In this document: positions 2,959-7,263 of the stretch, one piece after another
How the letters are laid out: each line of letters opens with the position of its first letter
Position numbering within the stretch: the stretch's first letter is position 1
Source: Bacteroidaceae bacterium
GTDB lineage: Bacteria > Bacteroidota > Bacteroidia > Bacteroidales > Bacteroidaceae
Direction: 5' to 3'
Assembly (NCBI GenBank): GCA_017466965.1
Contig: JAFTTD010000257.1
Span: 1-7,347 of the forward strand
Length of the DNA stretch: 7,347 bases
The notes under the pieces: generated by a model
The model's input: the letters and a program-made list of their open reading frames with translations, nothing else
The model's database searches: none
Told to the model about the DNA's origin: nothing
Position numbers and translations under genes: made by a program

Positions 2959-3025
2959 AAAAGCGTAAGGGCGTGTCAATGTGATATATCCTATCATTTA
3001 GTTTGACACGCTCTTACGCTTTTTT
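2959..3025 (+). terminator. Strong hairpin terminator after the LRR gene
   Basis: A 21-bp stem pairs 2959-2979 with 3003-3023, with one G-U wobble (2970 with 3012). The 23-nt loop can form an inner stem (TGATA 2982-2986 with TATCA 2992-2996). The right arm ends in a run of six T ending at 3025. It lies 42 nt after the LRR stop codon, between that gene and the convergent minus-strand sigma gene. The left arm begins with only four A, so termination of minus-strand transcripts is possible but weaker. Confidence 0.85.
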
Positions 3026-3098
3026 GTGTCCTTAGAATCTTGCTTTTGGCTGTTCTATAGACGGATTGAATATAAACCTGTTTTTGGCGAAAAAGTGT

Positions 3099-3201
3099 TG
3101 AAATTCCAGCGCAGAGGCATTTGAACTCCAGCGCAGAAGAAATGAACTTTCAGCGCAGAAGAATTTTGTTTCCAGTGCGCCGGTATAATCTTTCAGTCAG
3201 A
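3099..3201. repeat. 22-bp tandem repeats with CCAGCGCAGA core
   Basis: The core TTCCAGCGCAGA starts at 3104, recurs at 3126 (CTCCAGCGCAGA) and 3148 (TTTCAGCGCAGA), and again at 3170 in a degraded form (TTCCAGTGCGCC). A weak fifth copy (CTTTCAGTCAGA) starts near 3190. The spacing of the first four is exactly 22 bp. Units are separated by only about 10 nt of AT-rich sequence, so this is not a CRISPR array. The period is not a multiple of three, so it does not encode peptide repeats. It is close to two helical turns, as expected for repeated protein-binding sites, but no function can be assigned. Confidence 0.7.
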
Positions 3202-3219
3202 ATGTTCTCTTTGCCATAG
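3186..3219. repeat. 34-bp direct repeat, copy downstream of sigma gene
   Basis: This segment matches 5208-5241 at 30 of 34 positions, in the same orientation, at an offset of exactly 2022 bp. The differences are at 3191, 3199, 3205 and 3217. It lies 136 nt beyond the 3' end of the sigma/barrel gene and abuts the 22-bp repeat array. Similarity stops at both edges. It reads as a displaced copy of the 3' end of the PAP2 gene. Confidence 0.75.
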
Positions 3220-3322
3220 CGGCAGGTGAACCATAAAGTCGCTGCTGGCCTATAAGTGCATCAAGTTCCTGTAGTGACTGGCAGGGCGGTTTCTCAATGA
3301 ACACTGTCAATGACATGCCCAT
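3197..3322 (-). other. Small 41-codon open frame, doubtful gene
   Basis: The frame starts at ATG (3322-3320), 32 nt after the sigma/barrel stop codon on the same strand, and ends at TGA (3199-3197). The product would begin MGMSLTVFIEKPPC and end AAMAKRTF. It has no recognisable domain, signal peptide or membrane segment. Its end is the more informative part: MAKRTF-stop-LKD at the DNA level matches the C-terminus of the PAP2 protein, LAKRAFRLKD, with an AGA-to-TGA change. It may be a real small downstream gene, or a chance frame over a displaced gene end. Confidence 0.2.
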
Positions 3323-3354: not shown

Positions 3355-5034
3355 TTACCACGTAAATCTGATGCCGAAGGGCAGCGAGAGGTCAAACGGA
3401 TGCTCTGTGCGGTAGGTTTCTACCGGGCTACCAGTGGGGATGTAGTATTGTAGGCGTGGTTCGAAATAGACGTTGACGTGGGGCAACAACTGGTATTGCA
3501 CACCAGCACCTATATTCACCGAACATTGCCAAGGGGCTTTTACTTTGGCGTGGGATGTCGGCAAAATCAACGAGTCGGCATGTTCTGGCTGATACTGGCC
3601 GATATAGATGTATTGTGTTGTTTCCTTGCCACTCACAGGAATGTCAAGGCCTACACCGCCAGATGCGTACAACTGCCAACGGTTCTTTTCCAATAGCGTA
3701 TATGTCAGTTTCAGTGGCAGACCGACATAGTGGAGTTTCTGGGTGCGGCGAGTGAGCATATTTCCGTCATCACTCTCAAAGGTGGACTTCATGCGTGAGT
3801 AACTAATTCCGCTGGTCAGATTCCACCGCTTAGATATGGGATAACTCAACGAAAGTTCAAAGGTGCGTGGACGTTCGTGGTACTTTCTTTCTGATACGGG
3901 GGCGTTTGGATGGCTTGCATTGGTCATGGCTATACGCTTCATGTTCATGGCATCCACGCTGTCCATCTCGCTGGCATAGTTATTCACATAGTCTATGTAC
4001 TCACCCCAGTTATAGATGCGTATGCTGCGGGTATGGTCGCCAGATGCATAGTCAACGACGGTCAAGAAATTGTCGATGACGGATGTGCCGTTTGAGCGTA
4101 GGCCAGCGTAGGCCAGCATCGTACTCAACGGTGACTTCTTTTTCACAGGCGTAATGTCGTTTGTGTTTGGTAGTGTGTCTGAAGCCTCTGCTATCTGTAT
4201 ATTGTCGTAGAGTCTGACATTTGGTAGTGGACGTTCAGTGTGCATGGTGTCTGTTTGTTCGTCTCGCTCTATCGGATGCAGGATAGTATCTAATGGACTA
4301 ACGGAGTCTGTTGACATTTGATGGACGGGCACAATGGCTATTTGCGGAGTCGTTGTTATGGAATCACAGGGGATTTTAGAACTTGTTGATTTCTTGGTCT
4401 CAGTTCGTTTGCTGTGCAGTGTTGTTATGGGTTGAACTGTCTCTATGCGTCTGTTTAACATATAGGTATAGAACGCTACGGGCAGCAACAATGGCAGCGT
4501 CCACAGCATCCAGTACTGCGCCAGTAACTTGCGGAGCATTTTCTTTGCTCTTGTTAGTTGCGATGAAGAGGAATGTGGCTCTATGCCTAACATGTTGGCA
4601 ATCTCCTTGTGTTTCATTCCTTTAAACACTGAGAGTCGGAACACCTTGCCATATCCTTCTGGCAACTTGTCTATCAATTTCAATACTTCTTCTAAAGGAA
4701 CACCTTTTACGGTAATTTCTTCATTGTGAGCCTCTAATGACTCAACCACCTCCAAAGGAACAAAGGAATGATTTTTCTGATGGTCTTTGTATTTCGATGC
4801 TACGTTTCTCGTTATCGACATCATCCACGACTCAGCTATTCTATTGTCTCGCAAACGGTCAAACGAAGTGAAGATAATTACAAAGGCATCGTGCAACACA
4901 TCGTCCACCGTCTGCTCATCGCTGATATAGCGTCGGCATATGCCCCTCATCCTTTGGGCATATGCCTTGTATAGTTCTCCGAGGGCATCTGCGTCCCCCT
5001 GTTTGCATCGTTCTATCAGCCTTGTTATCTCCAT
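3355..5034 (-). CDS. ECF sigma factor fused to TM helix and OM beta-barrel
   Basis: Residues are numbered from the longest start at 5097. I prefer ATG 5034 (M22), where MEITRLIERCKQGDADALGELY begins like a normal ECF sigma factor; ATG 5043 is also possible. Sigma region 2 is at about 37-107 (DDVLHDAFVIIF, then AESWMMSITRN). Region 4 is at about 133-192 (LPEGYGKVFRLSVFKGMKHKEIANMLG, a helix-turn-helix, then PHSSSSQLTRAKKMLRKLL). A membrane helix follows almost at once (195-214, WTLPLLLPVAFYTYML), with a basic N-side that places the sigma domain in the cytosol. Residues 215-340 are a polar Ser/Thr/Pro-rich linker. Residues 410-580 show about eight amphipathic strands ending in FGIRFTW, with the terminal aromatic typical of an outer-membrane barrel. 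The product would span both membranes. No anti-sigma domain is visible. Release of the sigma part, for example by proteolysis, is inferred. Confidence 0.9.
   Translation of the reverse strand: MEITRLIERCKQGDADALGELYKAYAQRMRGICRRYISDEQTVDDVLHDAFVIIFTSFDRLRDNRIAESWMMSITRNVASKYKDHQKNHSFVPLEVVESLEAHNEEITVKGVPLEEVLKLIDKLPEGYGKVFRLSVFKGMKHKEIANMLGIEPHSSSSQLTRAKKMLRKLLAQYWMLWTLPLLLPVAFYTYMLNRRIETVQPITTLHSKRTETKKSTSSKIPCDSITTTPQIAIVPVHQMSTDSVSPLDTILHPIERDEQTDTMHTERPLPNVRLYDNIQIAEASDTLPNTNDITPVKKKSPLSTMLAYAGLRSNGTSVIDNFLTVVDYASGDHTRSIRIYNWGEYIDYVNNYASEMDSVDAMNMKRIAMTNASHPNAPVSERKYHERPRTFELSLSYPISKRWNLTSGISYSRMKSTFESDDGNMLTRRTQKLHYVGLPLKLTYTLLEKNRWQLYASGGVGLDIPVSGKETTQYIYIGQYQPEHADSLILPTSHAKVKAPWQCSVNIGAGVQYQLLPHVNVYFEPRLQYYIPTGSPVETYRTEHPFDLSLPFGIRFTW
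4095..4117. repeat. 10-bp tandem duplication within the linker
   Basis: AGCGTAGGCC occurs at 4095-4104 and 4105-4114, followed by a partial third copy AGC. It encodes LAYAGLR (residues 328-334) in the periplasmic part of the sigma/barrel protein. Because 10 is not a multiple of three, loss or gain of one unit would shift the frame after the transmembrane helix and remove the barrel. Confidence 0.8.
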
Positions 5035-5072
5035 CGTAAACATACGTCTATATCTATATAGTCCTACAACAG

Positions 5073-5111
5073 AAAAAAAGACTGCACCATCACGCACTTT
5101 TTTTTGATGGT
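5073..5111 (-). terminator. Hairpin with U-tract before the sigma gene
   Basis: Read on the minus strand, two alternative stems are possible. One is ACCATCA (5111-5105) with TGATGGT (5092-5086). The other is eight bases, seven of them A, at 5104-5097 with the complementary T-rich arm at 5080-5073, plus an inner TGC/GCA pair. Either is followed by seven T (5079-5073). This can end transcription of the PAP2 operon or act as an attenuator in the leader of the sigma gene, whose likely start lies about 38 nt further on. The stems are short or A-T rich, so strength is uncertain. Confidence 0.4.
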
Positions 5112-5206: not shown

Positions 5207-6172
5207 CTAATCCTTCAGTCTGAATGCTCTCTTTGCCAAAGGATATGCCTTGTCCATTGCTATGAAGATGATGATGGCAGAGAAGAATCCTGCTATGGAA
5301 TCGACAAGGTAGTGCGCCTGGATATATACTGTGGCACAGCAGAGCAGAAGATAGAAAGGTACCATCACCCAGAAGAGCCACTTGTTGCGTGTCTGCCAAG
5401 CAAGCATCATTGTGACAGTGCTCATGCCTACATGGCTGCTCGGGAAGGCTGCCGTAGGGCGTTCGCCCACTTCTTGCGCTCCTACCACAAGTTGGCTGAA
5501 TATGCCTTTTATTTCCGGCTTGAGCATTTCGGTGTTTGTCTGAAAATAGTATCCTATCTCAGGGAAGATGCCTGTCTGTGCGGCTTCGGTGCCTACGGCG
5601 CAGAAATAATACTGCGGTCCTGCCACAGGGAGAAGGTCGTAGATGAGATAGAACACGAAGAAGGATCCGAGGAATATGAAACTTGCCTTTTCGTAGTCGC
5701 TATAGCGGAAGAAGAGATAGAAGAGTACTGTGAGCACCATCATGTAGTAGTATGCATAGTAGCCCATATTGAAGGCTTCGCTCCAGAATGTTGTGCTCAG
5801 AAGTTTGCGGAACTCAAATGCCGGCTGGCATCCGAATAGTGTCTGGTCGGCCTGTGCGAACAGGTGGTCAAGATATGGATATTGACTGCAGAACTCGTAT
5901 GTTTCAGGATACCATTGGATGAGCAGCAGTAGCATCGGTACGCAGCGCAGCACTATTCCGAGCTTGCATGGGTAGATGCGGTATATCAGGTTTGTAACTG
6001 CAATAGCGCCTAATGCTATGGCGCGAAGGGTTATCATGCCGACAGGATTGGGGAGACCGTTCCAGTGGATGGCGATGAGTACTGATGTCAATAGTGAATA
6101 GGCTATGGTCAGCATTTCAACGCTTGACAGGCCTGATTCGTTCTTTTTTACGATTAAATCTTTTATAGCCAT
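5207..6172 (-). CDS. PAP2-family membrane phosphatase/phosphotransferase, Aur1-like
   Basis: This is an integral membrane lipid-phosphate enzyme of the PAP2 superfamily. Hydrophobic segments lie at about 20-36, 50-64, 73-86, 138-154, 163-182, 264-283 and 290-305. The catalytic motifs are near the C-terminus: ERPTAAFPSSHVG (237-249, His247) and QAHYLVDSIAG (285-295, His287 and Asp291). Earlier motifs D-TLFG-QP (109-117) and LLPVAGPQYYF (180-190) resemble the Aur1/inositolphosphotransferase-like branch (PAP2_3) more than simple undecaprenyl-diphosphate phosphatases. Known members transfer or remove phospho-headgroups on lipids such as ceramide; the substrate here is unknown. The ATG at 6172-6170 lies inside the end of the upstream dehydrogenase gene (10-nt overlap), so the two are translationally coupled. 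Its last codons form one copy of the 34-bp direct repeat. Confidence 0.87.
   Translation of the reverse strand: MAIKDLIVKKNESGLSSVEMLTIAYSLLTSVLIAIHWNGLPNPVGMITLRAIALGAIAVTNLIYRIYPCKLGIVLRCVPMLLLLIQWYPETYEFCSQYPYLDHLFAQADQTLFGCQPAFEFRKLLSTTFWSEAFNMGYYAYYYMMVLTVLFYLFFRYSDYEKASFIFLGSFFVFYLIYDLLPVAGPQYYFCAVGTEAAQTGIFPEIGYYFQTNTEMLKPEIKGIFSQLVVGAQEVGERPTAAFPSSHVGMSTVTMMLAWQTRNKWLFWVMVPFYLLLCCATVYIQAHYLVDSIAGFFSAIIIFIAMDKAYPLAKRAFRLKD
5208..5241. repeat. 34-bp direct repeat, copy at PAP2 3' end
   Basis: This is the upstream copy of the direct repeat seen at 3186-3219 (30 of 34 identical). Here it forms the last codons of the PAP2 gene (LAKRAFRLKD) and two bases of its stop codon. Together the copies flank the sigma/barrel gene. 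A repeat completing the 3' end of a resident gene is a usual arrangement for attachment sites of integrating elements, but no integrase lies between the copies. Confidence 0.75.
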
Positions 6173-7263
6173 TTTTCTTTTTTATACCAACTTATTGTTT
6201 CTTCTACTCCGCGTTCCAGGTTCCATTGTGGAACGTATCCTAATTCTCGCATCATGGGAGTGATGTCGCACTGCCAGTTGCGCTGTTTCATTATTTTGTA
6301 TTTGTCGGCGTTCAGTGTTGACGGTTTGCCAGTGAAGCGTGACAAAAGTTCTGATATGGCGGAGACGCCTTTCAGCACCCATAGCGGTGCCTTGATGTGC
6401 ATAACCCCTGATATGCCAAGTTCTCGCTGCACGAGGTCGCTGAAAGCACGACTTGTATATACATATCCGTCTGTGACAAAATATGTGCGTCCTGTGATTC
6501 TGCGGTCTGTTGCGGCGAAGATGGCTCCGACAAGGTCTTTTACATAAACGAATGTTATCTCTTGCGGTTTGAAGCCTACGGCAAAGTCAATGTGCGACTT
6601 AATGCTTTTTGCCATAAGGAAATAGTCGCGTTCGCGTGGGCCATATACTCCTGTAGGTCTGAATATGACGGTTGGGAATTCTTTGCCAAGCGATTTCAGG
6701 TATTCTTCGCTCTTTATTTTGCTCTTTCCGTATGCTGTGTTGGGCATAGGCTCATCAGCCTCTGTCATAGGTGTATATACTGATTTTCTGACAGTGTATC
6801 GGCTTATGAACTCAACGTCTTCTTCTGCACCGTTGAGAAGTTCTACATCGTGGGGCTTTATGGCGCTTTCCCTTAGTGGCCCCAATACGCTGAGGCTGCT
6901 GACGTAGATGAACTGCTGTGGCACCATGTCGAGCTTGCGCAAAGTCTCAACAAGATTGTAGGTGCAATGGTAATTAGCTCGTTCGAACTCCTCTTTGTGA
7001 AGGCATTTTGTTGCTCCTGCTGCATGGATGATGATGTCCCACTTTCCGTATTTGTTTTTGAAGTCGGTAAGCTGTTTTTCAAGGCTTTCTTCATCTTCCA
7101 TGTCAAGAGTCGCAAATTTCAGCCATTCGCTTTGCAGCCATTTCCTTTTTGAACCGCGTCTCATTCCTGCCCAGACGCTCATGCGGCGGCGTAGTGCCTC
7201 TTCGCAAAGGAAACTGCCTATAAATCCGCTTGCTCCGGTAATTAATATTTTTGTTTGTTCCAT
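6163..7263 (-). CDS. Extended SDR, NAD-dependent epimerase/dehydratase family
   Basis: This is a cytosolic NAD(P)-dependent oxidoreductase of the extended short-chain dehydrogenase family. The Rossmann signature GASGFIG is at residues 10-16, HAAGAT at 80-85 follows a typical beta4 strand, YVSSLSV at 120-126 supplies the catalytic serine, and Y178-x3-K182 (YGKSK) completes the active site. FRPTGVYGPRERDYF (201-215) is the usual substrate-side motif. The length of 366 residues is slightly above average because residues 131-165 form an extra segment between the serine and YxxxK motifs. Members act as sugar-nucleotide epimerases, hydroxysteroid-type dehydrogenases or 3-ketosphinganine reductases. 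The coupled PAP2 gene favours a lipid role, but the substrate cannot be read from the sequence. ATG 7263 follows an A-rich leader, as is usual in Bacteroidales. Confidence 0.88.
   Translation of the reverse strand: MEQTKILITGASGFIGSFLCEEALRRRMSVWAGMRRGSKRKWLQSEWLKFATLDMEDEESLEKQLTDFKNKYGKWDIIIHAAGATKCLHKEEFERANYHCTYNLVETLRKLDMVPQQFIYVSSLSVLGPLRESAIKPHDVELLNGAEEDVEFISRYTVRKSVYTPMTEADEPMPNTAYGKSKIKSEEYLKSLGKEFPTVIFRPTGVYGPRERDYFLMAKSIKSHIDFAVGFKPQEITFVYVKDLVGAIFAATDRRITGRTYFVTDGYVYTSRAFSDLVQRELGISGVMHIKAPLWVLKGVSAISELLSRFTGKPSTLNADKYKIMKQRNWQCDITPMMRELGYVPQWNLERGVEETISWYKKEKWL

Follow-up and report, generated by a model that had tools for sequence, protein, structure and literature searches.

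A single open frame in the DNA of a Bacteroidaceae bacterium of the gut or rumen joins an ECF sigma factor to a predicted membrane helix, a disordered tether and a predicted outer-membrane beta-barrel, and the comparison with related two-gene systems shows that this fused form lacks an anti-sigma segment. The gene is located at positions 3355..5034 on the minus strand of the analyzed stretch of 7,347 nt (GCA_017466965.1, contig JAFTTD010000257.1), which is called the window below. What is new here is the lack of the anti-sigma segment, the separation of the fused proteins from the two-gene forms, a promoter element and a private operon. The fused form itself is of a known kind, since Bacteroides thetaiotaomicron Dma3, which is a Dma-family member with an N-terminal sigma domain and without an adjacent sigma gene, has already been described (PMC13088901).

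To understand the organization of the fused protein, its 559-aa sequence was compared with Pfam families and its structure was predicted with AlphaFold2 (coordinates are on the minus strand). The frame starts with the ATG at 5034, and an alternative in-frame ATG is located 9 nt upstream. The sigma-70 region 2 was matched above the Pfam cut-off at residues 21–83 (4786..4974), while region 4, at residues 115–167 (4534..4692), was defined by the match to PF08281 (E 4.1e-12) and by the model. Region 3 was absent by Pfam, sequence matches and the model, which together with the presence of regions 2 and 4 is characteristic of ECF sigma factors, and the sigma part also matched SigW and sigmaE chains by sequence. 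Among the four main frames of the window scanned with Pfam, only the fused gene contained a sigma domain; hence, as in the description of Dma3, the sigma domain is N-terminal and no separate sigma gene adjoins it. The final helix of region 4 is continuous with the membrane helix in the model, where the two form one helix from residue 153 to 198. The inner-membrane part of it, at about residues 173–198 (4441..4518), was defined by sequence, hydropathy and the model helix, and contains a proline inside the hydrophobic stretch. It is followed by a predicted disordered periplasmic tether at residues 199–299 (4138..4440), with pLDDT below 50 at 199–298, which has the lowest conservation of all parts in both alignments, A1 and A2 (0.39 in A1).

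The C-terminal part, residues 300–559 (3358..4137), was predicted as a barrel by the AlphaFold2 model, by fold alignment and by a PF13568 match above the cut-off at residues 392–522. The count of eight strands is our own reading of the model, in which strand 1 is at residues 304–310, the other strands start from 382, and the C-terminal residue is Trp. The segment between strands 1 and 2, at residues 311–381 (3892..4104) by the model and fold alignment, has a conservation of 0.70 in A1 and 0.44 in A2; the modeled topology suggests that it is the first extracellular loop, and it could possibly serve as a sensor. When AlphaFold2 was used with 35 close relatives, sigma region 4 was unresolved, while it was resolved with 40 more diverse rows; the initial Foldseek comparison used the weaker model, based on the 35 close relatives. 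Fold matches alone do not demonstrate insertion into the outer membrane, which is the putative location of the barrel. The Dma-like helix, tether and barrel are likewise predicted, from hydropathy, pLDDT, Pfam and fold, and the protein would span both membranes and could sense the state of the envelope.

The protein search returned 2186 relatives at E ≤ 0.001, and 117 of the 120 homologs listed among them combine the sigma and barrel families in one chain. In a set of 80 loci, which were the best 80 of 210 relatives and came from Prevotella, other Bacteroidaceae, Muribaculaceae and related MAGs, the frame was intact in 78 and interrupted in L006 and L028. All 78 intact loci have the top hydrophobic stretch at 170–186 and the terminal Trp. 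The two interrupted loci are the only observation in favor of an assembly or annotation artefact merging two genes, while the intact frame in independent genomes and the homologs carrying both families in one chain make such an artefact a negligible concern; an assembly fusion was therefore rejected. These results agree with the initial annotation, which had described from the sequence an uninterrupted frame with sigma regions 2 and 4, a membrane helix, a linker and a barrel of about eight strands with a C-terminal aromatic residue, and the frame proved to be on the minus strand. It had also pointed to a stop codon that might always separate sigma region 4 from the helix in homologs, which is contradicted by the intact loci, and to a barrel at residues 410–580, where the model does contain one. 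The search for homologs that it had suggested likewise returned both families in one chain.

Related proteins also occur in a two-gene form, in which the sigma gene overlaps or abuts the gene for a protein consisting of a cytosolic segment, a membrane helix, a tether and a barrel. Among 61 genomes drawn from one family, 47 had a match at E ≤ 0.001, many of which were just other sigma factors. The fused and two-gene forms coexist in several genomes, for example G002, G011, G014, G021 and G039. The genome G002 (L111–L115) contains three fused proteins and four two-gene pairs, which makes a large set of barrel-linked sigma factors.

The comparison of the two forms showed that the cytosolic segment is 26–64 residues long in the 39 two-gene proteins, where the count begins at the nearest Met that precedes the helix by 25 residues or more, which sets a floor of 25 for this length. 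In the fused form, on the other hand, the offset between the last residue of the sigma region 4 match and the start of the membrane helix is −2 to +7 residues (median 1) in all 96 rows, within a search range of −10 to +60 residues. These rows are the 98 fused frames without L081 and L082, and correspond to 94 distinct proteins, because L111 repeats L042 and L044 equals L045. Hence, the fused form has no anti-sigma segment, and the proposal of the initial annotation that the sigma domain takes the place of the anti-sigma part is upheld. A tether of 138–227 residues is kept in the 96 measured fused rows. Proline is present in the membrane stretch of 88 of the 96 fused rows versus 3 of the 39 two-gene proteins. 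Among six additional fused proteins it was found in one, only at the end of the stretch in P0148 and P0220, and not at all in P0123, P0124 and P0165. Because of these exceptions and of the shared ancestry of the rows, the proline is best considered a trait of the window's lineage and not a rule.

To compare the relationships of the two forms, trees were built from the sigma and barrel parts, using just 18 fused rows from L001–L080 and leaving out three broken fused copies that resemble pairs (L006, L091 and L125) and the repeats of other loci (L081 and L082). In the careful sigma tree (175 columns; 35 fused, 39 two-gene and 2 outgroup rows) the two-gene proteins form one side of a branch with support of 100/100, which was recovered in 99% of bootstrap trees. 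The fused group requires two changes in this tree, because of the point at which the outgroup is attached, and only one change in 26% of bootstrap trees. In the barrel tree the split between the fused and two-gene forms corresponds to one change (83/88), as it does in 82% of bootstrap trees. When the six additional fused proteins, some of them from Bacteroides sp. and Muribaculum, were included in a quick sigma tree, each group required one change, with SH-aLRT values of 89 and 86; the fused proteins named Bacteroides sp. (P0045, P0165 and P0220) were located on the window's side. The simplest reading, which is not proven by these trees, is a single ancient fusion or split. The nearest neighbor of the window is L004 in the sigma tree and L003/L001/L002 in the barrel tree. 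Recombination between the sigma and barrel parts was considered as a source of this difference, and no such claim is made, because the sigma data are compatible with a clade of the window, L001, L002 and L003, which is left unrejected with an AU p of 0.335.

The upstream region of the fused gene contains a putative promoter, TGCAGTCTTTT-N11-GGACTATA, at 5057..5086 on the minus strand, with 0 mismatches to the family consensus. This family element, TGCAGTCTTTT-N11-GGACTWWA, is located ahead of the fused gene and recurs behind it. The box [AG]TGCAGTCTTTT or its close variant was found in 78 of 79 upstream regions, including that of the window, while L027 has one base changed in the box; 2 of the 81 loci were dropped, having too little upstream DNA. 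The box is positioned 51–54 nt before the start codon, or 70 nt in two loci, and is followed by 11 poorly conserved positions and then by GGACT and an AT-rich stretch. As [AG]TGCAGTC could include a start codon, a leader peptide starting in the element was considered, which is unlikely, because in 69 of 78 regions an in-frame stop precedes the fused gene.

The distribution of the element was determined by a search with up to 2 mismatches, using a consensus derived only from the regions upstream of the fused genes. In the 81 loci (820,686 bases) this search returned 144 sites and the reversed-pattern control 0. Upstream of the fused gene there were 65 of these sites, 59 were within 150 nt past its stop codon, 15 at 150–900 nt, and 5 at 0.9–3.2 kb downstream. 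The scan of 21 whole genomes (7 + 14), selected for holding a fused gene, returned 41 sites, versus 4 for the reversed control. Fused-gene loci contained 39 of them, and 2 were elsewhere, in a search that would miss divergent targets at other places because its consensus derives from the fused-gene family itself. Within 0.9 kb of the fused gene there were 37 of the 39, including one before a second fused copy, and the two others were 1.9 kb and 3.2 kb downstream. A third promoter copy (TGCAGTCATTCGTTGCAATTTTGGACTTTA and near variants) was seen 638–706 nt after the fused gene in L003, L009, L011 and others, and in this copy the spacer is conserved too, unlike in the other two.

The first half of the element extends beyond the close relatives. 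Upstream of more distant fused genes a GCAGT box was found in 13 of 15 cases, with the exception of L113 and L116. A TGCAGTA-like (GCAGTA) box also precedes 12 of the 39 two-gene sigma genes (L094, L097, L099–L101, L103, L104, L109, L110, L124, L126 and L129), while the second half of the element differs. A −35-like box common to the fused and two-gene lineages could be used to split the promoter specificity by sigma region. From its position and conservation, the element is probably a promoter used by this sigma lineage, from which we infer self-activation, which would be accompanied by local control of the neighboring operon.

In the relatives, the fused gene is followed on its own strand by the gene for a lipoprotein, which was assigned as such from its signal sequence, and by those for a radical-SAM/SPASM protein and a Gfo/Idh/MocA oxidoreductase. 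Among the 56 loci with at least 2.9 kb of downstream DNA, the lipoprotein was present in 43, the radical-SAM protein in 46, and the oxidoreductase in 44; 32 loci had all three genes and one (L001) had none. No family above cut-off was obtained for the lipoprotein, when six were compared with Pfam and two with NCBIfam, and the NCBIfam matches of a single radical-SAM and a single oxidoreductase representative were far below the cut-offs. Outside the close lineage the operon is patchy: among 14 divergent fused loci the radical-SAM gene was found at L085, L086, L088 and L089, accompanied by the oxidoreductase at all but L085, while L118 had only a weak 18-bit radical-SAM match, and the remaining nine had no operon match in the available DNA. 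None of the three genes was matched at the two-gene loci, a result that rests on 20 of the 39 pairs, for which 1 kb or more of downstream DNA was available. In place of the radical-SAM gene, L003 (8404–9189) contains the promoter element followed by a methyltransferase gene, and L001 (1976–3228) a methyltransferase-like frame and an acyltransferase. Hence, the cargo varies near the window's lineage, and its exchange behind the same promoter is possible in these two loci. It is plausible that the operon may have a role in changing a surface molecule.

In the window itself this operon is represented by a 32-codon remnant of the oxidoreductase gene (3212..3307, minus strand; tblastn, best row 81% identity, E 4.9e-16), and all 47 proteins that matched it at E ≤ 1e-3 belong to the Gfo/Idh/MocA oxidoreductase cluster. 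A second or third promoter site was not seen in the window even at 4 mismatches. As only the remnant is left and there are no further sites, the operon has decayed in the window, where the fused gene together with its own promoter is still intact. Because of this loss, the fused sigma factor of the window may control itself alone or genes elsewhere. The fused gene is preceded by genes for a PAP2 phosphatase (5207–6172) and an NAD-dependent epimerase-family protein (6163–7263), both assigned by Pfam and on the minus strand. A 34-nt end of the PAP2 gene recurs right behind the remnant (3186–3219 vs. 5208–5241, 88%), which points to an earlier rearrangement at this site of operon decay. On the plus strand, a 923-aa frame for a BspA-type leucine-rich-repeat protein (146–2917, Pfam) ends close to the decayed operon. 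A terminator-like inverted repeat with 21-nt arms, which are 95% complementary and 23 nt apart, is located between the convergent genes at 2959–3023, and at 3087–3174, between the remnant and the inverted repeat, a 22-nt unit around CAGCGCAGA is repeated imperfectly in tandem. The window contained no tRNA and no Rfam family at gathering scores.

The closest described systems are the Dma proteins of Bacteroides, which consist of an anti-sigma domain, a membrane helix, a disordered tether and a barrel (PMC13088901, 2026). The initial annotation had stated that they act on a separately encoded sigma factor; sigma is a separate protein for the two-gene Dma1 and Dma2, and Dma3 carries a sigma domain of its own (PMC13088901). 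The interpretation of the architecture and of the anti-sigma replacement in that annotation was borne out, and the fused form, whose earlier description it had left open, is already in print. The likeness to Dma3 concerns the N-terminal sigma domain on a Dma-type protein without an adjacent sigma gene, and the two were compared by description. The authors state that very little is known about Dma3, and the available part of that text gives no promoter element or regulon for it (PMC13088901). Both dma1 and dma2 mutants show increased expression of the dma3 locus (bt_2778-2779), and their vesiculation persists when dma3 is deleted (PMC13088901). In the same study, das2 and its neighbors bt_1555-1557 were among the genes most induced by dma2 deletion, which in B. 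thetaiotaomicron parallels the local control proposed here, and Das1 and Das2 were assigned to ECF21 (PMC13088901). A two-gene pair with a predicted barrel is also known from P. vulgatus, where it is induced by the antibacterial toxin BcpT, probably via envelope stress, and was likened by the authors to the EcfO system of B. fragilis (PMC9308784). The fused protein shares with Dma1, Dma2 and the P. vulgatus pair the membrane helix, the disordered tether, the C-terminal barrel, a related sigma factor and, in 12 of 39 cases, a similar −35-like box. The two-gene systems, in contrast, have their own separate sigma factor and a cytosolic anti-sigma segment, which the fused protein lacks, and the forms separate in the trees.

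Sigma factors joined to a membrane-anchored regulator in one chain are also known from P. putida IutY (ECF243), in which the sigma factor is fused to an anti-sigma part and proteolytically released through Prc and RseP, and from ECF48, ECF52 and ECF53 (PMC8999054). These proteins are described in the available text with an anti-sigma-like part and with no mention of a barrel (PMC8999054), while in the fused protein no anti-sigma part was found between the sigma domain and the membrane helix; region 4 leads straight into the helix, and a barrel forms the C-terminal end. The sigma-fused barrel form is mentioned in PMC13088901 and was not seen in the available parts of PMC9308784, PMC8999054 and PMC12596196.

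These data could be explained by a Dma3-type switch that passes a signal from the envelope to a promoter within one protein, in which anchoring is the off-state, proteolysis frees the sigma factor, and the gene itself and its operon are driven; we give this explanation an even chance. The barrel would be in the outer membrane, the disordered tether would cross the periplasm, and the sigma factor would be held at the inner membrane through its last, DNA-recognizing helix. Anchoring itself would silence the sigma factor, with no anti-sigma segment involved, because RNA polymerase could hardly dock when the recognition helix extends without a break into the membrane. The trigger would be an outer-membrane event, such as failed assembly of the barrel, or a ligand or damage that affects the barrel or its first loop, and would make the periplasmic portion accessible to proteases. 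Roughly residues 1–172 would then be released by regulated intramembrane proteolysis, and the free sigma factor would transcribe from its own promoter and from the promoter copies before the downstream genes, which are the lipoprotein gene and the genes of the radical-SAM/SPASM protein with the Gfo/Idh/MocA oxidoreductase. The data show the domain composition, the intact frame, the lack of an anti-sigma segment, the conserved element with its positions and the conservation of the operon, and in this proposal the topology, the anchored off-state, the proteolytic release, the signal, the element as the gene's own promoter and the operon function are inferred. The proline in the membrane stretch would suit intramembrane cleavage, although 8 of the 96 fused rows are without it. 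The site-2 protease family PF02163 was present in 8 of 8 genomes, but it is uninformative, because all 14 of 14 controls have it too.

The sigma factor could alternatively work while anchored, recruiting RNA polymerase and its own locus to the inner membrane, with the barrel only modulating this activity. Membrane-bound activators of the ToxR/CadC kind act from the membrane. The lack of an anti-sigma segment to switch the sigma factor off would be consistent with such activity, and nearly all sites adjoin the fused gene, as expected for a factor that does not diffuse. However, the predicted continuity of the region 4 and membrane helices (153–198) would leave almost no room for DNA and polymerase, and the characterized fused case, IutY, requires cleavage (PMC8999054), which makes activity in the anchored state unlikely. 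It is more doubtful still that every chain is cleaved once it has been made, or is produced as two pieces, so that the sigma factor and the barrel act apart and the common frame only couples their amounts. The poor conservation of the tether and the different nearest neighbors of the window in the sigma and barrel trees would fit this explanation, but the neighbor difference is not significant, the frame is intact in 78 of 80 loci, and a tether of 138–227 residues is retained in the 96 fused rows measured.

The upstream element could also be a site for another regulator, with the operon controlled otherwise, for example by a Das/Dma pair in the same genome. The box shared with a part of the two-gene sigma genes is consistent with this explanation, as is the response of the dma3 locus to dma1 or dma2 deletion, which the authors consider possible cross-talk (PMC13088901). 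On the other hand, in our reading the −35-like half is shared while the −10-like half differs between lineages, a pattern that promoters of related sigma factors would be expected to show, and the layout of two blocks with a poorly conserved 11-nt spacer also argues against it. Hence, control by another regulator is improbable, nearly to the same degree as activity of the anchored sigma factor.

The transfer of a signal across two membranes to a promoter usually takes two or more proteins, while here one chain would suffice, without an anti-sigma segment. Because one chain would reach the outer membrane, an outer-membrane event could be read out by cutting that chain. The fused protein may thus be a transcription factor silenced by anchoring alone, with the cut chain as the readout and, in this lineage, with a private regulon comprising the gene itself together with a short operon behind copies of the same promoter, a view which we hold tentatively, with somewhat less than even confidence. 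The role of Dma3-type proteins becomes directly testable through the promoter element, the private operon and the missing anti-sigma segment.
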